Assembly (NCBI GenBank): GCA_024400895.1
Contig: JAKSMA010000004.1
Location: 1-27,488 of the forward strand
Reading direction: 5' to 3'
Origin: Muribaculaceae bacterium
GTDB taxonomy: Bacteria > Bacteroidota > Bacteroidia > Bacteroidales > Muribaculaceae
DNA: 27,488 bases
This document shows positions 802 to 21,455 of this stretch, one piece after another. Each line of letters opens with the position of its first letter. The stretch's first letter is position 1. The notes beneath the pieces were generated by a model, which was not told the origin of the DNA, made no database searches, and saw nothing but the letters and a program-made list of their open reading frames with translations. Position numbers and translations under genes: made by a program.

Positions 802-1965
802 TTAATCTTTCAATTTAAAATTTCTATAATTTAACAGCTGGATTTCGCTCTCATAATTTTCAAAATCACCTGTGTAAACAATCATCTTTTTCTTAACCGG
901 ACAATTTACCCATGAATCTATCTTCTTAAGAGATTTTTCAAAAGTCTTATTGTATGTTTCCGACGACTTTACTTCAATGGCTATAAATTCACCAGCTTCC
1001 TTAATCAAAATATCTACTTCATTTTGATTTGAATCGCGATAAAAGAATACACCACCTTCTTTACCCTGATTGTATCTATGCTTCAAAACCTCCATTACTA
1101 TCATATTTTCAAAAATAGCGCCTCTCATTTTATCTCGCATAAGTTGTTTAGGAGTTTCAATATCAAGCAGATAACAAGCAAGACCAGTGTCGTTGAAATA
1201 AAATTTAGGGGTTTTAACCAAACGCTTTGTTGTATTCTCATAATATGGTGGAAGAAGCGTAATGACATAAGAAGCCTGAAGCACAGAAAGCCATCTCGTA
1301 ATAGTTTTTGAATCTACACCCACTTCATTACCTATTTCTGTAGCATTGAAAAGTGAACCAATTCGCGAGGCACATATTTTTATGAATTTCATAAACTGCA
1401 TTTGATTTTGAATGTGCAGATAATCGCGTACATCTTTTTCTATATATGTTTTGGCATAAGAAGGATAGAAAAATTTTGCTACATTTTTACCGGCACAAAT
1501 AGCAGGATATAAACTATTAAAAAGAATTTCATCAATACTTTTTCTTTCTTGCTTTCCTTCGTATTGCGTCATAGGTAATAATTCAAACACCCCAGCCCTA
1601 CCAGGAAGCGACTCTGATATATTATGAAGCATTTCAAAATTCGAACTTCCAGTGAGCGCAATTTTTCTATTCGGATTTTTATCTACAATTCCTTGAATAT
1701 ACTCAAGCAGAATAGGTACTTTTTGCACCTCATCAATTATAATCCCTTCATCTTTATTTTGATTTAGAAATGCGATTGGATCGTTTTCTGCAAATTCACG
1801 CATATTCAAATTTTTAAGACTATAATATTCATAGTCGGGAAACAAATGCAATAGCATTGTACTTTTACCCGACTGTCTCGGTCCTGTAACCGATATTACA
1901 GAAAAATACTGGGAAGCTTCTTTAATAACTTCCTCCATGTCTCTATGTAGATAAATATTATTCAT
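802..1965 (-). CDS. AAA+ ATPase with C-terminal DUF4143 (PD-(D/E)XK-like), copy 1
   Basis: The 387-residue protein has an AAA_14 N-terminal domain with Walker A GPRQSGKST (28-36), Walker B ending IIIDEVQ (75-81) and a sensor-like LTGSSNF. A winged-helix-like segment, ATEIGNEVGVDSKTITRWL, starts near residue 205. A DUF4143 tail carries NEVDILI and IEVKSS (about 314-333), the D...ExK pattern of PD-(D/E)XK nucleases. The family is very common in Bacteroidales and its role is unknown; NTP hydrolysis and DNA contact are reasonable guesses. The gene is AT-rich compared with its neighbours. It starts 4 bases from a perfect dyad and ends 9 bases before the trmH-type gene. It resembles the other two ATPases of this window only in domain plan; those two are closer to each other (GARxVGKS and a PMDFEEF-like motif) than to this one. 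Confidence 0.9.
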   Translation of the reverse strand: MNNIYLHRDMEEVIKEASQYFSVISVTGPRQSGKSTMLLHLFPDYEYYSLKNLNMREFAENDPIAFLNQNKDEGIIIDEVQKVPILLEYIQGIVDKNPNRKIALTGSSNFEMLHNISESLPGRAGVFELLPMTQYEGKQERKSIDEILFNSLYPAICAGKNVAKFFYPSYAKTYIEKDVRDYLHIQNQMQFMKFIKICASRIGSLFNATEIGNEVGVDSKTITRWLSVLQASYVITLLPPYYENTTKRLVKTPKFYFNDTGLACYLLDIETPKQLMRDKMRGAIFENMIVMEVLKHRYNQGKEGGVFFYRDSNQNEVDILIKEAGEFIAIEVKSSETYNKTFEKSLKKIDSWVNCPVKKKMIVYTGDFENYESEIQLLNYRNFKLKD

Positions 1966-2868: not shown

Positions 2869-5640
2869 ATGGAATATAATTTTCGCGAAATTGAAAAGAA
2901 ATGGCAGCAGTACTGGCGCGACCAGCACACCTACCAGAGTGAAATAAAGGCTGACAAGCCTAAATATTATGTGCTCGACATGTTCCCTTATCCATCAGGT
3001 GCTGGGCTTCATGTAGGTCACCCTCTCGGTTACATTGCAAGCGACATCTTTGCTCGCTTCAAAAGATTGAAGGGATTCAATGTGCTTCACCCAATGGGTT
3101 ACGACGCGTACGGACTTCCTGCCGAACAATACGCTATTCAGACTGGTCAACACCCTGAAGTGACTACAGTGAAGAATATTGCTCGCTATCGCGAACAGTT
3201 GGAAAAGATTGGTTTCTGCTACGACTGGAATCGCGAAGTGCGTACGTGCGACCCAAAATATTATAAGTGGACTCAATGGGCATTTATGCAGATGTTCAAG
3301 AGTTACTACAATACTGAGCTCGACAAGGCTCGTCCAATCGACGAACTGATTGCATACTTTGAAAAGAACGGTAGCGAAGGATGCAATGCCGCTACCAATG
3401 GCAAGAATGCTTTCACTGCAGAGCAGTGGAATGCAATGACCAAGGTGGAAAAGGAAAATGCCTTGATGGACTATCGTATCGCTTATCGTGGCAACACTAT
3501 GGTAAACTGGTGTCCTAAGCTCGGTACTGTGCTTGCCAACGATGAAGTGAGCGAAGGCGTTTCACTTCGTGGCGGCTATCCTGTAGTTCAAAAGATGATG
3601 AGTCAGTGGTGCTTGCGCGTTTCGGCGTACGCAGGTCGTTTGCTTCGTGATCTTGATAATCTTGATTGGACCGACTCTATCAAAGAAACTCAACGCAATT
3701 GGATTGGCTATAGCGAAGGTGCTGAAATGCAGTTCCCACTTGTGGGCAGCGATGAAAAGATGCTTATCTTCACCACTCGTGCCGATACCATTTTCGGTGT
3801 TACATTTATGGTGCTTGCTCCAGAAAGCGAATATGTGGAAAAGGTGACCACTGCCGAGCAAAAGGCTGCCGTAGAAGCGTATCTCGACGAGGTGAAGCAT
3901 AAGACTGAGCGTGAGCGTATGATTGAAAAGAAAGTGTCGGGTGTGTTCAGCGGCTCGTACGCAGTTAATCCTGTAACCGGTAAGAATATTCCTATCTATA
4001 TCAGCGACTACGTATTGGCTGGCTATGGCACAGGTGCCATCATGGCTGTGCCTGCTCACGACAGTCGCGACTACGCTTTCGCAAAGCATTTCAATCTCGA
4101 CATCGTGCCACTGATTGAAGGTGCAGATGTGAGCGAAGAAAGTTTCGATGCCAAGGAAGGTATCGTAATGAATTCAAACAACGATAAGCTTCAATTGAAT
4201 GGCCTCCAGGTGAAGGAAGCTATTGCCAAGACCAAGAAGTTTATTGAGGAAGAGGGAATTGGTAAAGTAAAGGTAAATTATCGCCTTCGCGACGCTATCT
4301 TCAGCCGTCAGCGCTATTGGGGCGAACCATTCCCTATCTATTACGATGCTGATGGTCAGCCACAGGTGATTGAAGAAAGCGAACTTCCATTGCAACTTCC
4401 TGAAGTAGATAAGTTCTTGCCTACCGAAAGCGGTGAGCCTCCATTGGGTCGTGCTAAGAATTGGGTGGCTACTAATGATCAACCTTTGGAACTTTGCACA
4501 ATGCCAGGTTTCGCTGGTTCGAGTGCCTACTATTTGCGCTATATGGATCCACACAACGATGAAGCGCTTGTGGGCGAAGAAGCAAATGGCTATTGGCGTC
4601 AGGTCGACCTGTACGTAGGTGGTACTGAACACGCTACCGGTCACTTGATTTATAGCCGCTTCTGGAATAAGTTCCTCTTCGACTACGGTTATGTGTGCGA
4701 AGCAGAACCATACAAGAAGCTCTTCAACCAGGGTATGATTCAAGGCCGAAGCAACTTCGTATATCGCATTAAGGACACCAACACTTTCGTAAGCCTCAAT
4801 CTCAAGGATGAATACGATGTAACTCCTATTCACGTGGATGTGAACATCGTGAGCAACGATGTGCTCGACATTGAAAAATTCCGCGCTTGGCGTCCTGAAT
4901 TTGCCGATGCCGAATTCATTCTCGAAAAGGATAAATACATTTGTGGATGGGCTATTGAAAAGATGTCGAAATCAATGTTCAATGTGGTCAATCCCGACGA
5001 TATTGTAGACCGTTATGGTGCCGACACCTTGCGTCTGTACGAAATGTTCCTCGGTCCTGTTGAAGCAAGTAAGCCATGGGATACCAACGGCATCGACGGT
5101 GTGAACCGCTTCTTGAAAAAATTGTGGAACATGGTATTTGATGGTGATGCCGTACGCTTGACCGAAGAAAAGCCAACTGCCGACAATCTTAAGACACTTC
5201 ACAAACTCATCAAGAAGGTTACTGCCGATGTGGAAGTGCTCAGTTACAACACTTCAGTGGCTGCATTCATGATTTGTGTTAATGAACTCTATACGCAAAA
5301 GTGCGTGAGCAAGGCTATCTTTGATGAACTCATCGTGGTGCTTGCTCCATTTGCTCCACACATCACCGAAGAGTTGTGGCATGTGCTCGGTCACGAAGGC
5401 ACCATTTGCGATGCTCAATGGCCTGCTTTCAACGAAGAATATCTCAAAGAAAGCAATGTGAAGTACACAGTGATGTTCAATGGCAAGCCACGCTTCAATA
5501 TTGAGGTACCTGTAGGCACCGACAAGGCTGAAGTAGAGCGCCTCGCACTCTCCGACAAGGGAGCTGAAAAGTGGCTCGCTGGCAAGGCTCCAAAGAAGGT
5601 GATTGTGGTGCCAAACAAGATTGTAAACGTAGTGGTATAA
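2869..5640 (+). CDS. leuS: Leucyl-tRNA synthetase
   Basis: This class I aminoacyl-tRNA synthetase charges tRNA-Leu with leucine in the cytoplasm. It has 923 residues, within the range of bacterial-type LeuRS with Bacteroidetes-type insertions. The HIGH-type motif [13 protein letters not shown] is at 40-52 and KMSKS at 698-702. The CP1 editing domain shows the threonine-rich [11 protein letters not shown] (from about 302) and [10 protein letters not shown] (from about 392), whose Asp normally anchors the amino group of misacylated substrates. Both the synthetic and the proofreading sites look intact. The KMSKS loop follows a leucine-specific insertion, and an anticodon-binding domain with a small C-terminal domain completes the protein. 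The gene starts after the long AT-rich gap and ends 30 bases before a strong terminator, so it is a single-gene transcript. Confidence 0.98.
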
Positions 5641-11731: not shown

Positions 11732-11849
11732 ATAGGAAAAGTGTATTTTTACATGGTAAAATTTATAGGAAAAGTGTATTTTTTAGTTGCGTATTTTATA
11801 GGAAAAGTGTATTTTTGCATGGTAAAATTCATAGGAAAAGTGTATTTTT
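11732..11849 (+). repeat. Iteron array A: four 33-bp units upstream of ATPase copy 2
   Basis: The 19-bp core ATAGGAAAAGTGTATTTTT occurs four times without a mismatch, starting at 11732, 11765, 11798 and 11831, so the period is exactly 33 bp. The 14-bp spacers differ, but spacers 1 and 3 are nearly the same (ACATGGTAAAATTT and GCATGGTAAAATTC), which gives a 66-bp higher-order unit. The last core ends 32 bases before the ATPase start codon. Three helical turns per unit would put all cores on about the same face of the DNA. Because 33 is a multiple of three, the array also translates into a spurious FIGKVYF repeat peptide. I read it as an operator array. Confidence 0.85.
11810..11817 (+). promoter_or_regulatory. 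-7 element embedded in iteron array A
   Basis: TATTTTTG fits TAnnTTTG and consists of the end of the third core plus the first spacer base. A transcript starting about 7 bases downstream would carry the fourth core in its leader. Occupied repeats would then directly block RNA polymerase. Confidence 0.4.
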
Positions 11850-11881: not shown

Positions 11882-13243
11882 ATGTTATTTAGAAAAATTG
11901 AATATAAAATAGAGAATTTTTTAAAAAGCAATCACAAGCAAATGCTTGTGGTAAGCGGTGCACGTCAGGTTGGAAAATCTTTCATTATTCGCGAAGTTGG
12001 CAAGCGATTATTCGCTAATTTTATAGAAGTGAATATGGAGATGGATAAGCAAGGTGCTCGCTTATTTGAAAAAGCTAATACAGTGGAAGATTTCATGCTT
12101 GCATTGAGTTCTTTTGCAGGATCAAAAATGAAGCAAAAGGAAAATACTTTGGTTTTTATTGATGAGATTCAAGCATATAATCATCTTCTTACTTTAGCAA
12201 AATTTTTGGTAGAGGATGGTAGGTTTACTTATGTAGCCAGTGGTTCTCAATTAGGAATAGCATTGAAGTCGACGCAAAGTATTCCTATAGGTAGTATTGA
12301 AATTTTAAATATGTATCCACTTGATTTTGAAGAATTTTTAATGGCAAATGGTGTGGGTAGTATGTTTATCTCTAATATAAGAAATAAATTTGAAAATAAT
12401 GAGTCGTTATCTGATTCACTTCATAATAAAATGCTTGATTATTTTCGAAAATATTTGCTTATAGGTGGGATGCCAAAAGCAGTAGATACTTATTTAAATG
12501 AACATAACATGGTAAGTGTTCGTAATATTCATAGAAACATAACAATGTTATATAAGAGAGATGCTGCTAAATATGAAAATGAATCTTTGAAAAAACTAAA
12601 AATTCAGCGTATCTACGACATGGTTCCTTCTAATTTAGAAAAAGTAAAAAAAAGAATTGTGGCTAAGGATATTGAACTGAAAAGAGGAAAAAGAATCAAT
12701 GATTACCAAGATGAATTTGAATATTTAATTTCATCTGGAGTTAATTTAAATGTTCATGCTATTAGCAAACCATCTTATCCACTGGTTGAAAATAGTGGAA
12801 AAAATTTGCTGAAGCTTTATATGAATGATGTAGGTTTGCTTACAAGTATTCTTTATCACAATGATGTGCATCCTGTTATGAATGATAATTGTGGTGTGAA
12901 TTTAGGTTCGGTTTATGAGAATTTGGTAGCGCAGGAATTGAAGGCCCACGGCTTTAACCTTTTTTACTACGATAATAAGAAAAATGGAGAAGTAGATTTT
13001 TTAATTGACCATATTGATTCTTTGTCAGTGCTTCCCATTGAAGTGAAATCTGGAAAAGATTATTATATTCATACGGCTTTGAACAATTTATTAAAAATTA
13101 AAGAATACAAAATCAAGAAAGGAATTGTATTTAGTAATAAATCAAGAGTGTATGAAGATAAAAGCATTATTTATATGCCAATTTATTATGTGATGTTTCT
13201 TCATCCTTCTGAATTTGAAAATAGTGAATATATTTATATTTAA
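11882..13243 (+). CDS. AAA+ ATPase with DUF4143, copy 2
   Basis: In this 453-residue protein Walker A is GARQVGKS (26-33) and Walker B VFIDEIQ, with Asp94 and Glu95. SGSQLG follows as a sensor-1-like element, then the family motif MYPLDFEEFL. The C-terminal DUF4143 part has GEVDFLI (about 369) and PIEVKSGK (about 386), the D...ExK pattern of PD-(D/E)XK folds. The gene is strongly AT-rich, unlike the GC-rich rdgB that begins 6 bases after its stop. It is preceded by iteron array A. The family has no established function. Context (array, composition, tight placement before a housekeeping gene) suggests an acquired, self-regulated module. Related in sequence to copy 3 and only distantly to copy 1. 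Confidence 0.9.
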   Translation: MLFRKIEYKIENFLKSNHKQMLVVSGARQVGKSFIIREVGKRLFANFIEVNMEMDKQGARLFEKANTVEDFMLALSSFAGSKMKQKENTLVFIDEIQAYNHLLTLAKFLVEDGRFTYVASGSQLGIALKSTQSIPIGSIEILNMYPLDFEEFLMANGVGSMFISNIRNKFENNESLSDSLHNKMLDYFRKYLLIGGMPKAVDTYLNEHNMVSVRNIHRNITMLYKRDAAKYENESLKKLKIQRIYDMVPSNLEKVKKRIVAKDIELKRGKRINDYQDEFEYLISSGVNLNVHAISKPSYPLVENSGKNLLKLYMNDVGLLTSILYHNDVHPVMNDNCGVNLGSVYENLVAQELKAHGFNLFYYDNKKNGEVDFLIDHIDSLSVLPIEVKSGKDYYIHTALNNLLKIKEYKIKKGIVFSNKSRVYEDKSIIYMPIYYVMFLHPSEFENSEYIYI

Positions 13244-13834: not shown

Positions 13835-13904
13835 TCATCCACCAACCCCTCATCCACCCCCATTTCCACCGCTAAATTCCTATTCCAGAAAGTTCATTAA
13901 TAGT

Positions 13905-13969
13905 AAATTTTACGATTATAACCGCATTTTTACCGGTAAATTTACGGTTATAATCGCATTTTTACCGGT
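13905..13969 (+). repeat. Orphan array C: two 32-bp units with internal dyads
   Basis: Two 26-bp cores, 13912-13937 and 13944-13969, differ at only two positions and have a 32-bp period. CGATTATAACCG in the first core is the exact reverse complement of CGGTTATAATCG in the second. Between them lies a perfect 12-bp palindrome, TTTACCGGTAAA (13929-13940). Period and core length match arrays A and B, but no ATPase gene follows; the next gene is DUF4886, about 600 bases on. Confidence 0.7.
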
Positions 13970-15600: not shown

Positions 15601-15688
15601 AAAATTCTTGATTTCGTGCAAAAACCGCCATACAAAATTCTTGATTTCGTGCAAAATCCTCAAAAAAAATTCTTGATTTCGTGCAAAA
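15601..15688 (+). repeat. Iteron array B: three 32/33-bp units upstream of ATPase copy 3
   Basis: A 23-bp core made of AAAA, then TTCTTGATTTCGTGC, then AAAA occurs at 15601-15623, 15634-15656 and 15666-15688 without mismatch. The periods are 33 and 32. The last core ends 4 bases before a -7 element, so its TTGATTT part covers the -33 region. The sequence is unrelated to array A but copy number, period and position are alike. A fourth, isolated copy lies at 17633-17655. Confidence 0.85.
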
Positions 15689-15692
15689 TATG

Positions 15693-15700
15693 TATATTTG
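15693..15700 (+). promoter_or_regulatory. -7 element of ATPase copy 3
   Basis: TATATTTG is an exact TAnnTTTG match, 5 bases after the last array B core. The predicted transcript starts near 15707, upstream of the reading frame that begins after the TAA at 15731. Confidence 0.55.
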
Positions 15701-15760: not shown

Positions 15761-17083
15761 TTGCAATGGAAAAATAAAGAAAAAGGTTCCGTTGCCCTAC
15801 TGATTGAAGGTGCTCGCCGAGTTGGAAAAAGTTGGATTGTAGAGGAATTTGCGAAGAATGAATATCGCTCTTATATATTAGTTAACTTTGCTCATATATC
15901 AAACGCCATGAAAATGGTATTTGATGAATACCTAAACGATTTAGATTCTTTTTTTCTGTTTTTACAGAATGTTGCTGGTATAAAGCTATATGAACGAGAA
16001 TCAATGATAGTTTTTGACGAAATCCAGAACTATCCTTTAGCACGCCAAGCTATTAAACATTTGGTGGCAGACGGGCGCTACGACTATATAGAAACTGGGT
16101 CACTTGTAAGTATAAATGAAAATATAAACAACATTCTCTTGCCATCGGAGGAAAGAACTATATCAATGTACCCGATGGATTTTGAAGAATTTCTTTGGGC
16201 TTTAGATGACGAACTTACAATGCCATTTGTAAAACGTTGTTTTGACAAGCATTTGCCATTGGGACCAATGCACAGTAAGGTGATAACTCTTTTCCGCCAA
16301 TATCTTATTGTTGGTGGTATGCCACAAGCAGTACTGAAATATGTAGAGACAAAAAATTTTCAAGATGTGGATGTAATAAAGCGTGATATTATCAATCTCT
16401 ATAGGAGAAGCATTAGTAAATACGCTTCCAATTACAAGGAAAAAGTGAAGTCAATTTTTGACCAAATTCCTGGAGAATTACAGAAACATGAGAAACGTTT
16501 TCGTTTATCGGCAATAGAAAAAACTGCGCGTTATAGAACCTACGAATCATCATTTTATTGGTTACAAGATGCCCAAATCACGAATATGTGTTATCGTGTA
16601 ACAGAACCTCAAGTTGGGATGAGACTTAAAAGAGATGAACAAATTTTTAAATGTTATATGCTGGATACAGGTTTGCTCATTTCCCATTCTTTTGATGAAA
16701 AAGTTATCCAAGGAGAAGAACTCTATCAGAAATTACTTTTAGACAAAATAGAGATGAATTCAGGCATGCTTATTGAAAATGTTGTTGCCCAAATGTTTGT
16801 TGCCAGTGGGCACAAGTTATATTTTTATAGTTGCGCTTCAAGAGATAGCACAGACGATAGGATGGAAATCGATTTTTTAGTAGAAAAACCATCTCTCACA
16901 AATGCTCATAACATTTGCCCTATAGAAGTGAAATCTGGTAAAAACTACACTTTTTCTTCTTTAAACAAATTCATTTCAAAATTCGGAAAACAATTAGCAA
17001 CACCTTATATTGTTCACACCAAAGATTATAAAGAAGAAAACGGAATAGTGTTTTTACCTATTTATATGGTGCCACTTTTGTAA
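15761..17083 (+). CDS. AAA+ ATPase with DUF4143, copy 3; canonical start lost
   Basis: From TTG at 15761 the frame gives 440 residues. Walker A is GARRVGKS (17-24), Walker B IVFDEIQ with Asp86 and Glu87, and the family motif is MYPMDFEEFLW. The DUF4143 end has MEIDFLV (about 368) and IEVKSGK (about 388). The conserved N-terminus of the subfamily can be read further upstream, back to the in-frame TAA at 15731: KKRKIYNQLLQWKN. No ATG or GTG occurs there; the only ATG nearby (15766) is in another frame and stops after three codons. The protein must therefore use TTG or ATT, or it is barely made. AT-rich and preceded by array B. The rest of the frame is intact, so loss of the start would be recent or tolerated. 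Confidence 0.85.
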   Translation: MQWKNKEKGSVALLIEGARRVGKSWIVEEFAKNEYRSYILVNFAHISNAMKMVFDEYLNDLDSFFLFLQNVAGIKLYERESMIVFDEIQNYPLARQAIKHLVADGRYDYIETGSLVSINENINNILLPSEERTISMYPMDFEEFLWALDDELTMPFVKRCFDKHLPLGPMHSKVITLFRQYLIVGGMPQAVLKYVETKNFQDVDVIKRDIINLYRRSISKYASNYKEKVKSIFDQIPGELQKHEKRFRLSAIEKTARYRTYESSFYWLQDAQITNMCYRVTEPQVGMRLKRDEQIFKCYMLDTGLLISHSFDEKVIQGEELYQKLLLDKIEMNSGMLIENVVAQMFVASGHKLYFYSCASRDSTDDRMEIDFLVEKPSLTNAHNICPIEVKSGKNYTFSSLNKFISKFGKQLATPYIVHTKDYKEENGIVFLPIYMVPLL

Positions 17084-17305: not shown

Positions 17306-17569
17306 ATGAAAAAGAAACAAACAATACGAATCTTCGAAGAAAAAAAGGTGCGCACTGTGTGGGATGACGAACAGCAGAAATGGTATTTCTGTGTTGTAGA
17401 TGTTGTCGAAGCTCTTACTGATAGTAAGAACCCAACAGACTACATCAAGAAAATGAAAAAGCGCGATCCTGCACTTGCCGAAGGGTGGGGACAAATTGTC
17501 ACCCCCCTTTCAGTGCAAACAGCTGGTGGTAGGCAAAGGATGAATTGCACAACACAAGAAGGATGGTGA
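17306..17569 (+). pseudogene. Truncated BRO-N (phage antirepressor-like) gene
   Basis: The 87 codons match the start of BRO-N domain proteins: KQTIRIFEEKKVRTVWDDEQ, then WYFCVVDVVEALTDSKNPTDYIKKMKKRDP and a C-terminal LSVQTAGGRQRMNC. Intact relatives continue with EGLFRIIQ-like sequence and reach about 200-280 residues. Here the frame stops right after TQEGW. BRO-N proteins are DNA-binding antirepressor-type proteins of phages and mobile elements. The domain is therefore incomplete and probably without function. It sits between the HNH remnant and a decayed iteron copy. Confidence 0.7.
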
Positions 17570-17621
17570 AGAATGATATTCGATGCCGACAAGGTCGACT
17601 CGTAGACTTTAAAAATACAAA

Positions 17622-17689
17622 AACCGCCCTACAAAATTCTTGATTTCGTGCAAAATGTTTATGCTTACATCTGATTATCAACGCCTTAA
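17622..17689 (+). repeat. Decayed copy of array B and its promoter
   Basis: ACCGCC(C/A)TAC plus a full 23-bp array B core (17633-17655) is followed by TTATGCTTACATCTGATTA. In the intact array the same order reads GTATATTTGCATCTGATTA, so the -7 element has changed from TATATTTG to TATGCTTA. No ATPase reading frame follows. The remaining DNA between 17570 and 17855 shows no gene. Confidence 0.7.
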
Positions 17690-17855
17690 TTAATATTAAA
17701 AAAAATCTCATCCCCAAAACCTCGTAGGCCTGTCGACACACCCCCTTGAATCCCCTCTAACACACAAAACCACACATACCTTCTAAAAGTGTTTTTCCTA
17801 TACTCTCACTTCAAGAAAATATATTGAATATTGTCGAAATTGTGTATTATAGAGC

Positions 17856-17887
17856 GTTGTACTATTATCCACAACCCTTTAAATTTG
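17856..17887 (+). promoter_or_regulatory. Promoter of the restriction-modification operon
   Basis: TAAATTTG (17880-17887) is an exact -7 element, with GTTG (17856-17859) 20 bases upstream as a weak -33. It decides the start of the controller gene, because the upstream in-frame codon at 17831 lies before the promoter. An exact E. coli-type DnaA box, TTATCCACA (17865-17873), falls in the spacer. Confidence 0.55.
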
Positions 17888-17911
17888 CAAGTTACAACAA
17901 TATTATTTTCT

Positions 17912-18145
17912 ATGACTATTCAGGACAAGTTTGGCATTGCCATTAAGCGTATAAGAAAGCAAAAAAATCTTTCGCAGGAGAAGTTTGCTTTAGAAGCAGG
18001 AATTAACCGCAGATATATGAGCGAGATTGAAAATGGAAAGGCCAACGTTACCCTCGACATCATAGAACGTATAACAAATTACCTCAATTGCAGTTTAGCC
18101 GATTTCTTCAAAGAACTCGATAACAGTAACACACCAGAACTCTAA
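17912..18145 (+). CDS. XRE-family regulator, likely R-M controller (C) protein
   Basis: The 77-residue protein consists almost only of a helix-turn-helix of the XRE/Cro type: IRKQKNLSQEKFALEAGINRRYMSEIENGKANVTLDIIERI, with the recognition helix near residues 31-40. Size and position, first in an operon with a methyltransferase and an endonuclease, fit C proteins. These bind their own promoter and delay endonuclease synthesis until host DNA is methylated. I could not recognise a clear pair of C-boxes upstream, so the control role is inferred from family and context. The start at 17912 is preferred to a frame-compatible codon at 17831 because it lies 24 bases after the -7 element and matches the family's length. 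Confidence 0.8.
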   Translation: MTIQDKFGIAIKRIRKQKNLSQEKFALEAGINRRYMSEIENGKANVTLDIIERITNYLNCSLADFFKELDNSNTPEL

Positions 18146-18174
18146 AAACACACAACGAAAAAACACTAATAATC

Positions 18175-19002
18175 ATGACGCAGAAAGGTTTTGAAGACTA
18201 TGTTCAAGCTGTGTATAACAGCAAAAATGGTACAGCAAAGAGCTATATCACAGCAATTCGCATCATTGACAAGATGTTTGAATTTGATGATGTGTTTGGG
18301 TTGCAAGGAAAATCTATTACTTGCTTAGATGATGAGGCTTTGCTCCTGCGTATTTCAGTGTTTGTTACCGAGCAACAAACTTTGTTTATTAAGGGTGAAG
18401 ATTCTTTTTTCCGTAACATTAGCCCTACTCAATTAAGTTATCCAGGAAAACGATTCTGTTCTGCGGCATTCAAGCAACTTCTGAATTATTATAAACATCA
18501 CATTGAGGAGGAAAAAGCAGAATTAGTTCTTCGTACCCTGAAATCGGGTATTAAGATTTCAAAAGAACTTTCCACTATCTTTAAGATTGATAAAGAGGGT
18601 ACCGATAAGTTGGTTACGACTAAGGTTAGGCTGGGACAAAATTATTTTAGAAAAATGGTTTTGGCTAACTATGATAACAAGTGTTGTGTAACTGGGCTTA
18701 ATGTTCCTCAAACACTTCGTGCAAGTCACATTGTTGCATGGGCTGAAGACAAGAAGCATAGAATGAATCCAGAAAATGGACTTTGTTTGTGTGCAACATA
18801 TGATGCGGCCTTTGATAAGCATCTCATTTCTTTTGATGAAGACTATCGTATGATAGTAAACAAAGAAATTAAGGAATATTTCACAAATGAAACTGCCAAA
18901 GAATATTTTAGCAATTTTGAAGGAAAGCAGATTATCCTTCCCACAAAATTTATGCCAAGCCAGAAATTACTCGAAAGGCATAGAAATTTAATGATAGGAT
19001 AA
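18175..19002 (+). CDS. HNH endonuclease of the R-M operon
   Basis: The 275-residue protein has an HNH_2-type nuclease domain in its C-terminal half. Elements are CCVTG at the start of the domain, His185 in ASHIVAW, Asn198 in NPENGLCLC and His216 in FDKHLISF. The N-terminal half (about 1-140) has no motif that I recognise and may provide DNA or partner contacts. Genes of this type are frequent neighbours of type II methyltransferases. The role next to a complete HpaII-like pair is open: a second restriction enzyme, a nuclease acting on modified DNA, or a repair nickase replacing a Vsr protein. It lies 29 bases after the C gene and 33 bases before the methyltransferase gene. The end of a second copy is found at 17186-17256. 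Confidence 0.8.
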   Translation: MTQKGFEDYVQAVYNSKNGTAKSYITAIRIIDKMFEFDDVFGLQGKSITCLDDEALLLRISVFVTEQQTLFIKGEDSFFRNISPTQLSYPGKRFCSAAFKQLLNYYKHHIEEEKAELVLRTLKSGIKISKELSTIFKIDKEGTDKLVTTKVRLGQNYFRKMVLANYDNKCCVTGLNVPQTLRASHIVAWAEDKKHRMNPENGLCLCATYDAAFDKHLISFDEDYRMIVNKEIKEYFTNETAKEYFSNFEGKQIILPTKFMPSQKLLERHRNLMIG

Positions 19003-19035
19003 ATTAAAATTTAGAAGAGGTCTTAAATATAACAG

Positions 19036-20370
19036 ATGACTAAAAATAAATTTACACTTATGGACTTTGTTAAACGACAAAGTTTGGCAAATATAACAGG
19101 TATTTTTGGAGAGGAGTGCCTTAACGAGGATGGAACGATTATGACAATGGCTGATCAAGCTGCTGTCATTACACATTATCTTAAACTCAAAAATAATCCT
19201 CAATTTGCTCGCCCTTATATTCTTAAGGGTGAACAGTTATTACAATTGTGGAAGGAATTTATTAACGAGCAACCAAAAAATCAAAAATTTGGCCTTGTTG
19301 CAGAGGATTCAACGGCTTATATGGCAAGTCTTTTCAGTGACGTTAAAAGTTCTCCATTTCCTCCTCAAGAGCCCCATCAATTCACATTTATTGACCTCTT
19401 TGCAGGAATTGGTGGCTTCCGAATGTCGTTCCAAAATTTAGGGGGAGAATGTGTATTCTCGTCGGAATGGGACGAACAAGCTCAACGCACCTATTTTGCT
19501 AATTACGGTGAAGTTCCTTTTGGCGACATAACAAAAGAGAGTACCAAACAGATGATTCCAGATAACTTTGACATTCTTTGTGCAGGATTCCCTTGTCAGG
19601 CATTTTCTCTTGCTGGAAAGAGAAGAGGATTTTCTGAAACACGAGGAACGCTTTTCTTTGACGTTGCTGAAATTCTCCGAAGAAAACAACCCAAAGCGTT
19701 TTTTCTTGAGAATGTGAAAGGTCTTGCTATTCACGACAAGGGAAAAACGTTAGAAACAATTCTTAACACCCTAAACGAAGTAGGATATATAGTACCAAAA
19801 CCTCAAATTCTGAATGCTATGCACTATGGTGTACCTCAACATCGAGAACGCATCTACATAGTTGGATTTAGAAAAGACTTGGGCATTAAAGCGGAAGACT
19901 TTGTCTATCCAGAACGAAATCAACAAACTCCTTGTTGGCTTGACGTTAGAGAAGAGAATCCCGTACCAGCAAAATATTATCTCTCGACAACATATTTAGA
20001 AACACTTCGTCGTCATCGTGCTCGCCATGAAGCAGCAGGACACGGTTTTGGTTACAAGATTATTGATGACAATGGTGTTGCCAACGCTATAGTATGTGGA
20101 GGTATGGGAAGGGAATGTAACCTTGTTAGGGACTTCCGTCAAACTAAACTTATTCCTACCACTAACATTAAGGGCGAAATCAACAAAGAAGGGGTTAGAA
20201 AGATGACCCCTCGCGAATGGGCACGTTTGCAAGGATATCCTGATAGTTTTAGAATAGTTGTTTCAGATGCTTCTGCATATAAACAATTTGGAAACAGTGT
20301 TGCTGTACCTGCTATTCAAGCAACTGCTAATCAGATTCTTTTGGTTTTAAAGAATAAAAATATTATATAA
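19036..20370 (+). CDS. DNA (cytosine-5)-methyltransferase, M.HpaII-like (CCGG)
   Basis: This 444-residue enzyme transfers a methyl group from S-adenosylmethionine to carbon 5 of cytosine. Motif I is FIDLFAGIGGFR (from about 118). Motif IV has the catalytic Cys187 in GFPCQAFSLAGKR. Motif VI is FLENVKG, motif VIII HRERIYIVGF, motif X FGNSVAVPAIQAT near the end. SSEWDEQAQ, PAKYYLSTTYLETLRRH and MTPREWARLQGYPDS agree closely with what I recall of M.HpaII, so CCGG is the likely target. About 115 residues precede motif I, more than in M.HpaII as I recall it; their job is unknown. The stop lies 2 bases before the endonuclease start. Confidence 0.93.
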   Translation: MTKNKFTLMDFVKRQSLANITGIFGEECLNEDGTIMTMADQAAVITHYLKLKNNPQFARPYILKGEQLLQLWKEFINEQPKNQKFGLVAEDSTAYMASLFSDVKSSPFPPQEPHQFTFIDLFAGIGGFRMSFQNLGGECVFSSEWDEQAQRTYFANYGEVPFGDITKESTKQMIPDNFDILCAGFPCQAFSLAGKRRGFSETRGTLFFDVAEILRRKQPKAFFLENVKGLAIHDKGKTLETILNTLNEVGYIVPKPQILNAMHYGVPQHRERIYIVGFRKDLGIKAEDFVYPERNQQTPCWLDVREENPVPAKYYLSTTYLETLRRHRARHEAAGHGFGYKIIDDNGVANAIVCGGMGRECNLVRDFRQTKLIPTTNIKGEINKEGVRKMTPREWARLQGYPDSFRIVVSDASAYKQFGNSVAVPAIQATANQILLVLKNKNII

Positions 20371-20372
20371 AC

Positions 20373-21455
20373 ATGGCTATTACAGGAAACAAAGGTGAAT
20401 GGAGTGAAATTTACACACTGTTCAAGTTACTTGGCGAGGGAAAAGTATATGCTGGTGATGCCGACATGAACAAGATGGATTTATACTATCCAATACTCAA
20501 CATAATTCGAGAAGAAAGTAAAAAATATGAATACCGCCCCAATGTAGAGCAAAACATTGTTATTGTGGATGAGGATAACAATGAATATGCCAGAATCTCT
20601 ATGGATAAGTTTATGAAGGAATCTCAACATTTATTGAAAGAGATTAAAGCTGCAAAGGATAGAACATTTTCTGTTCCCACTACAGAATCATTTATGGGAA
20701 TGATAGGGTGCACAAAATTAAAAGCACCGTCAAAGGATAAAGCTGATATTCATATAGTTATTCACGATTTGCGTACAAATATGACGCCTTTATTGGGATT
20801 TAGTATCAAATCTCAATTGGGCAGTGCATCAACTCTTCTCAATGCTGGTTTACCTACAAATATTACTTATAATGTCGTGGGGAAAAAATTGACCGATGCA
20901 GAGATTCAAGAAATAAACGATATTAATGAACATCTTCCTCGTATTCAGGCTTTGATAGATAAAGGTTGTTCATTGGCGTATTGTGATATAGAACATAAGA
21001 CTTTCAAAAACAATCTGCTTTTCCTTGACAGCTGTATGCCTCAATTTATTAGTGAGTGCTTAATCTCTGATAGTATGCCAGGTTCAACCTCATCATTAAA
21101 AGATGCTGTTGAGAATGTTGCACAAAAAAATCCATTCAATTTTACTGGTTCTGATGTTATTTCTTTTTATGAGCATAAAATGAAAGTTTTGTTGTTGGAT
21201 GCAGCTCTCGGAATGACACCTGCCAACGAATGGAAAGGTCGTTATGATGCAAATGGTGGTTATCTTGTAGTTCGCAAAGATGGTGAAATTGTTTGCTATC
21301 ATTTCTACAATCGTAATGATGTAGAAGATTACCTTTATCATAATACACGTTTTGAACGTGCCAGCCGGAGCCGCTACAACTATGGCTCACTTTACCGAGG
21401 TAATGACGGAGATGTTTATTTTAAACTCAATTTGCAGATTAGATTCAAGAAATAA
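20373..21455 (+). CDS. HpaII-family restriction endonuclease (CCGG)
   Basis: The 360-residue protein begins MAITGNKGEWSEIYTLFKLL, the typical start of HpaII-family enzymes (about 358 residues), which cut unmethylated CCGG. A possible catalytic centre of the PD-(D/E)XK kind is Asp125 (KADIHIVI) with SIK at 144-146 (FSIKSQLG); this assignment is inference. The gene follows the methyltransferase after 2 bases, so the two are probably translationally coupled, with the methyltransferase first, which protects the host. The frame is intact. No strong terminator follows. The AT-rich composition and the remnants upstream suggest that the whole operon was acquired. Confidence 0.9.
   Translation: MAITGNKGEWSEIYTLFKLLGEGKVYAGDADMNKMDLYYPILNIIREESKKYEYRPNVEQNIVIVDEDNNEYARISMDKFMKESQHLLKEIKAAKDRTFSVPTTESFMGMIGCTKLKAPSKDKADIHIVIHDLRTNMTPLLGFSIKSQLGSASTLLNAGLPTNITYNVVGKKLTDAEIQEINDINEHLPRIQALIDKGCSLAYCDIEHKTFKNNLLFLDSCMPQFISECLISDSMPGSTSSLKDAVENVAQKNPFNFTGSDVISFYEHKMKVLLLDAALGMTPANEWKGRYDANGGYLVVRKDGEIVCYHFYNRNDVEDYLYHNTRFERASRSRYNYGSLYRGNDGDVYFKLNLQIRFKK

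Follow-up and report, generated by a model that had tools for sequence, protein, structure and literature searches.

A phased array of direct repeats as the candidate private operator of a DUF4143 ATPase gene in a Muribaculaceae bacterium

The 27,488-nucleotide (nt) stretch analysed here (the window; positions 1 to 27,488 of the forward strand of contig JAKSMA010000004.1) belongs to a 2.18 Mb, 67% complete genome assembly of a Muribaculaceae bacterium, GCA_024400895.1. It carries a short array of direct repeats, array B, in front of the gene for an AAA+ ATPase with a DUF4143 domain, ATPase B. Comparisons across this family suggest that ATPase B probably autoregulates its expression through array B, which would act as its own phased operator: Phased arrays with private repeat words precede most genes of the family, the word is inherited jointly with the protein and stands in fixed register with a promoter box, residues of the protein covary with the word in the largest clade, and array and gene are transferred jointly. 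The features concerned are as follows.

15601..15623, + strand: array B core copy 1, 23 bp
15634..15656, + strand: array B core copy 2, 33 bp past copy 1
15666..15688, + strand: array B core copy 3, 32 bp past copy 2
15693..15700, + strand: TATATTTG, a TAnnTTTG box, 4 bases beyond the last array B core
15761..17083, + strand: ATPase B, with AAA_14 (PF13173) and DUF4143 (PF13635) domains, classed by PADLOC as PDC-S01; presumed to read array B

Array B consists of three exact copies of the 23-bp core AAAATTCTTGATTTCGTGCAAAA, spaced by 33 and then 32 bp; the coordinates that the initial annotation of this DNA gave for the cores and for the box four bases further on are exact. We take TATATTTG to be a Bacteroidales -7 type element, with TAnnTTTG as the presumed consensus, and core copy 3 would then overlap the expected -33 region of the promoter. 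Tandem Repeats Finder reports the array at 15601-15689 (period 32, score 143), and within the 400 nt upstream the top-scoring repeat pair reaches 24.5, compared with a maximum of 13.5 among 100 dinucleotide shuffles. A 22-bp array B core, with up to three mismatches allowed, occurs four times in the genome, always within the window (reversed control pattern: 0). We rejected a genome-wide regulon of this core because it is confined to the window, with no occurrence elsewhere in the 67% complete genome.

ATPase B belongs to the PDC-S01/DUF4143 AAA+ ATPases by both its domains and its match to PDC-S01 models (3.3e-108), which also match two other ATPases of the window, ATPase A (5.6e-176) and the one encoded at 802-1965 (2.7e-93). 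Pfam finds AAA_14 and DUF4143 in these ATPases, and in ATPase A weak AAA and AAA_16 matches as well. The AAA+ core, helical domain and winged helix follow each other in the order of STAND proteins. The C-terminal domain appears to be PD-(D/E)XK-like, with E389 and K391 invariant and D371 present in at least 90% of 58 sequences, and is predicted to have nuclease activity. A sequence search of the PDB with ATPase B returned neither the archaeal AAA+ ATPases SSO1545 (2fna) and PABY2304 (2qen) nor any other relative at E values up to 1, and an NCBIfam search gave no match for it. Passages of PMC12988326 describe PDC-S01 as an ATPase fused to a member of the PD-(D/E)-X-K superfamily and as the fourth most common prokaryotic defence, with validation pending for most such candidates, and passages of PMC13356809 as the most frequent single locus in a rumen genome set. 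These passages contain no mechanism for PDC-S01, and those of PMC12988326 mention no array or operator. The antiviral role of DUF4143 ATPases is a presumed one.

Periodic repeats stand before most genes of the family. We surveyed the regions 5′ of DUF4143 AAA+ genes in a first set made up of the host genome, relatives found with ATPase B in 120 genomes (30 loci and 80 further ones among the matches listed) and 80 loci from a scan of GTDB genomes. A detector requiring three copies at 31-35 bp and a score of at least 34 found an array in 169 of 206 regions (host genome 11/18, relatives 94/109, GTDB scan 64/79), whereas dinucleotide shuffles reached this score in 2 of 1030 cases and control genes in 1 of 233, the latter taken from 20 hand-picked 20-kb stretches on long contigs of 12 relatives with any ATPases left in. 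The 206 regions exclude L007, L018 (broken gene), L021, L051-L054 (duplicates) and L238 (no Walker A). When periods from 17 to 75 were scanned, 179 regions scored at least 34, 164 of them with a best period of 32-34. A second set, drawn from the same bacterial family save for one locus of another family in the order, had arrays in 75 of 85 regions. The host genome has 20 DUF4143 matches, and the best repeat pair beat all 100 shuffles in 16 of the 19 with upstream DNA (all except L007); L001, L002 and the broken L018 failed, and at L003 the scored pair was a different one from a 32-bp repeat that we spotted afterwards.

The 33-bp period extends to genomes filed under Bacteroidota, Bacillota, Actinomycetota and Archaea, and to plasmid copies in Segatella copri and Collinsella aerofaciens. 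We also searched for the family in the genomes of Candidatus Methanomethylophilus sp. 1R26 (L236), Holdemania filiformis (L219), Mobiluncus mulieris (L212), Faecalicoccus acidiformans (L204) and Prevotella sp. HJM029 (L200), taking 30 of 53 matches and analysing 28, which gave 27 distinct regions (L400 and L405 share one; five repeat earlier loci). Nine of the 27 have a 33-bp array (0/560 shuffles) and eight have an array of 22-24 bp at threshold (1/540 shuffles, 0/233 controls); 16 have one spacing or the other, with one region counted in both, and 11 have neither. Spacings near 23, 33 and 52 bp correspond to about 2, 3 and 5 helical turns. A scan of virus contigs with ATPase A returned a single locus, L158, whose word is spaced by 33 and 33 bp. 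Among seven phage, plasmid and virus loci, L158, L159 and L160 have the 33-bp period, L162 has weak spacings of 32 and 33, L164 has two copies at 66, and L161 and L163 lack a clear repeat.

Arrays with the shorter period of 22-24 bp, about two helical turns, were seen at L391, L393, L394, L397, L398, L406, L409 and L009.

Repeat words go with their proteins. The similarity of cores rises from 4.7-5.5 for proteins less than 50% identical to 6.0 at 50-60%, 7.5 at 60-75% and 14.1 at 75-95%, while spacer similarity stays at 4.2-4.8 up to 75% identity and is 5.9 at 75-95% and 9.5 above 95%: Words are kept with the protein while spacers drift. The predominance of distant pairs keeps the all-pairs Mantel correlation weak (Spearman 0.16, reached by 0 of 200 permutations). 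Words identical to that of array B at 18 of 20 positions precede ATPases 59-60% identical to ATPase B in metagenome-assembled genomes filed as Clostridia and Bacilli (L168, L209), and the word of a Bacteroidales group (L024, L178, L182, L226) recurs in F. acidiformans DSM 26963 at 57-59% identity; labels of metagenome-assembled genomes can be wrong, and the latter is a named strain. The cores are polar with respect to the gene, GTG being present in 115 of 203 words and CAC in 7.

Within the largest clade, word similarity at a given overall identity tracks residues 257 and 259 of the winged-helix recognition helix and residues 367, 380 and 383 around the nuclease-like motif. This was reproduced in a second set of 57 sequences, from which sequences at least 85% identical to the first set, at least 90% identical to each other or less than 38% identical to ATPase B were excluded. 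The initial annotation had proposed cognate protein-operator pairs, to be checked by collecting repeats upstream of homologues and comparing them with the DNA-binding part of the protein, and had named as refuting outcomes an absence of repeats before most homologues and repeats independent of phylogeny. Neither was seen, and the covariation, strongest at the winged helix and nuclease-like domain, lends support to cognate pairs. Mutual information over 76 words gives R257 with the base before GTG, R259 and R367 as candidates; K257 goes with G in 13 of 14 cases, and of 59 cases of R257, 33 have C and 18 have G. We regard a residue-to-base code as a lead only, as several of the highest-ranking pairs fall at unlikely positions and the effect of ancestry is still included.

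The arrays are in register with the promoter box. TAnnTTTG occurs from 60 nt 5′ of the array onward for 172 of 182 same-order arrays and for 17 of 182 shuffled ones (arrays not dereplicated, one shuffle each, spacing detector limited to 31-35 bp). The last box lies downstream of the array in 83 cases, inside it in 60 and upstream in 29. For 77 non-redundant GTG-bearing words, its phase from the core GTG, modulo the period, is 3-6 nt in 40, 11-16 nt in 27, 19-23 nt in 10 and elsewhere in 0, and the phase is likewise uneven (R 0.39) over the 144 non-redundant arrays with a box. Such 9-10 nt steps would be expected if the bound protein and the polymerase kept to a fixed helical face relative to each other.

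A head-to-tail protein assembly on the DNA is indicated by core polarity, spacing, promoter register and residue covariation, the last of which would fit the gene product as the protein that binds the array. In the mechanism that we infer, array B would serve the ATPase gene that follows as its private operator, and the ATPase, with its STAND-like AAA+ core, winged helix and PD-(D/E)XK-like domain, would form a head-to-tail oligomer with one subunit bound to each asymmetric core. As the cores are about three helical turns apart, the subunits would lie on nearly the same face of the DNA and could stack via their AAA+ domains. The bound oligomer would cover the promoter and repress its own gene, and its removal or re-arming, for example by an infection signal, would release expression. 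A role beyond that of an operator, which we consider doubtful, is that the array serves as a parking and arming platform for an NLR-like (STAND) ATPase-nuclease: An ordered, inert oligomer would be held near its promoter, at a phased DNA address of its own, and released when an invader disturbs that DNA, its transcription or the nucleotide state. The word would then be a private address that moves with the gene, so that some 20 units could coexist in one cell.

Several observations weigh against autoregulation by ATPase B or complicate it. The gene coordinates run from the first in-frame TTG; the ATG of its relatives, nine codons earlier, is missing from this assembly, so the gene may be silent or the assembly wrong. 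In the first set 37 of the 206 upstream regions fall below the detector threshold, and words change fast even at 50-75% protein identity. The covariation could partly reflect ancestry beyond the binning by identity, the second set being from the same bacterial family; positions 256, 260 and 361 replicated poorly, columns 168, 189 and 342, outside plausible DNA-reading places, also score high, and the nuclease-like segment is not favoured in one of two smaller clades (26 sequences) and mildly favoured in the other (21). The 3-nt register is partly built in, because GTGTA words supply the TA of the box, and where the array lies beyond the last TAnnTTTG (the 29 upstream cases) repression would need a roadblock. 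Divergence of words to avoid cross-talk, put forward in the initial annotation, found no support: In 31 same-genome pairs of at least 45% identity, one of them a duplicate, words are no less alike than those of different-genome pairs at equal protein identity (mean residual -0.18, a value matched or undercut in 1794 of 5000 random draws). Finally, a gene's own word recurs on the same strand within 1.5 kb 3′ of the gene in 7 of 176 non-redundant loci, a feature that an operator does not need; on the opposite strand it was found in none of the 176 loci, and shuffled words gave 0 of 1760.

This recurrence bears on the strongest rival, which we hold to be unlikely: that the ATPase-nuclease of a small mobile element moves array and gene in the manner of TnsA/TnsC and recognises the array as the element's end or target, regulation being secondary. 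Array and gene indeed travel as a unit, as DNA similarity is confined to them in 38 of 55 close pairs (15 groups), where confined means starting at most 75 nt before the array and ending at most 25 nt past the stop codon. The pairs have proteins 85-98.5% identical and at least 400 nt on each side; those at 98.5% identity or more, many of them one genome in two collections, were dropped, and as repeats remain the 15 groups are the fair count. In 33 of the 55 the first repeat lies no more than 15 nt from the start of similarity, and in 39 the stop codon lies no more than 15 nt from its end; in the pairs outside the 38, similarity extends to the right only (9), the left only (2) or both sides (6). 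The units occur on chromosome-type contigs and in 59 plasmid records. At L377 (G605:C1) the same two-core array flanks the ATPase open reading frame (ORF) as a direct repeat (2791-2839 and 4036-4084). The gene preceding some units is, judging from its C-terminus, presumably mnmE; 3′ of it, differing ATPase units stand in some genomes and no unit in several neighbouring ones, and at L371 and L373 the unit sits between its 3′ end and a second copy of that end. A repeated gene 3′ end beyond a unit is the arrangement found at attachment sites, and the copies at L371 and L373 point to a separate site-specific recombinase as the mover. Also at odds with mobility through the arrays, no second copy was found downstream in 169 of the 176 loci, and the -7 box keeps register with the repeats. 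Such mobility is compatible with regulation, and both could be true.

Reading of the array by a separate host regulator instead of the ATPase seems quite improbable. Dedicated repressors of defence loci exist, and passages of PMC12255303 describe one, RptR, that reads three direct repeats before a restriction-modification island; here, each gene has a word of its own, the conserved unit of array and gene includes no regulator gene, a given word reappears alongside its ATPase in other phyla, and word similarity goes with residues of the ATPase itself. We give still less credence to control at the RNA level by repeats within the leader transcript. The last box precedes the array in the 29 upstream cases, as this would require, but in 83 the array lies wholly 5′ of it and would be untranscribed from that box, and spacing near whole helical turns is a feature of DNA. 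Neutral tandem duplication through slippage is hardly credible: Copy number does vary, a gene 99% identical to ATPase B (G829, L247) having two array copies by eye and the window three, but the period is shared by Bacteroidota, Bacillota, Actinomycetota and Archaea, cores are kept while spacers drift, the promoter register is present, and control genes lacking arrays and the shuffle counts also disfavour it.

The arrays differ from the known repeat systems that they resemble. Plasmid iterons are direct repeats about two helical turns apart, and their winged-helix Rep initiators act in addition as repressors of their own gene. The ATPases beside the present repeats show no Rep domain in Pfam, and the similarity in the 38 of 55 pairs covers an array and one ORF, unlike a two-gene toxin-antitoxin module; both comparisons, made in the initial annotation, serve as analogies and not as memberships. 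CRISPR arrays have repeat-spacer units of about 60 bp or more, while the arrays here have a unit of about 33 bp, mostly in 3-4 copies. The RptR operator, in passages of PMC12255303, is closest in arrangement, with three direct repeats over the promoter of a defence locus and a repressor that controls its own promoter. Those passages describe, for a restriction-modification/DarTG2 island, 9-bp repeats with a palindrome, a dedicated 9-kDa repressor and one conserved site, whereas the DUF4143 arrays precede an ATPase-nuclease gene and have asymmetric cores whose word differs from gene to gene. A direct-repeat operator at a defence locus is thus already known, as are the genes themselves as the defence candidate PDC-S01. 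Our literature search, which included DUF4143 together with direct repeats and covered sources other than preprints and most subscription papers, found no description of the arrays. They give each PDC-S01 gene a visible, testable DNA target, for many proteins, and offer, as a library, a few hundred protein-DNA pairs matched by nature; the word-residue covariation indicates which surface of an AAA+ nuclease would read the DNA.

The window holds further features of the same kind.

11732..11849, + strand: array A, four exact 19-bp cores at 11732, 11765, 11798 and 11831, period 33
11882..13243, + strand: ATPase A, AAA_14 and DUF4143, PDC-S01, 33% identical to ATPase B over residues 12-438
13913-13934 and 13945-13966, − strand: orphan array of two 22-bp cores, no ATPase gene adjoining (noticed span 13903-13969)
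802..1965, − strand: third PDC-S01 ATPase, no 33-bp array found, inverted repeat TTATGTAA..TTACATAA 5′ of the gene
17620..17700, + strand: decayed second copy of the ATPase B 5′ region (exact core, degenerate -7, leader; by eye)

Arrays A and B had been described as fully unlike in sequence and equal in architecture. Their words are indeed as different as unrelated words, with a similarity of 4 that 58 of 63 other words from proteins less than 40% identical to ATPase B equal or exceed; we rejected a relation between the two, since they are no closer than other distant pairs, although GTG is common to many words of the family. Period and target family agree, while copy number and promoter position do so only in outline, array A having four cores, against three in the initial annotation, and its TAnnTTTG (11810-11817) within the array. 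The orphan array may be a leftover: Loss of a gene between two flanking arrays would leave such a remnant, and related motifs stand at the ends of ATPase ORFs at L334, L336 and L377. The inverted repeat, by eye, is common to L001 and L002, paralogues without a 33-bp array. The decayed copy lies 0.55 kb past the ATPase B gene and contains a solitary array B core (17633-17655) missed by the initial annotation.

A search by phylum, with 2 of 395 genomes, was of little use. At L087 (G004:C107), a 16-bp word stands in 17 copies, alternately 42 and 27 bp apart, before an ATPase gene. Two ATPase matches in one genome (G022:C21:4894 and G022:C37:30937) have equal score and length, and are perhaps identical copies or an assembly duplicate. 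Downstream of the ATPase B unit, 17831-21455 encodes an Xre-type regulator, an HNH protein, a cytosine-5 methyltransferase and an HpaII-type endonuclease, probably a restriction-modification island, and between ATPase B and these genes a short ORF (17306-17569) has a partial BRO-N domain under the Pfam cut-off.
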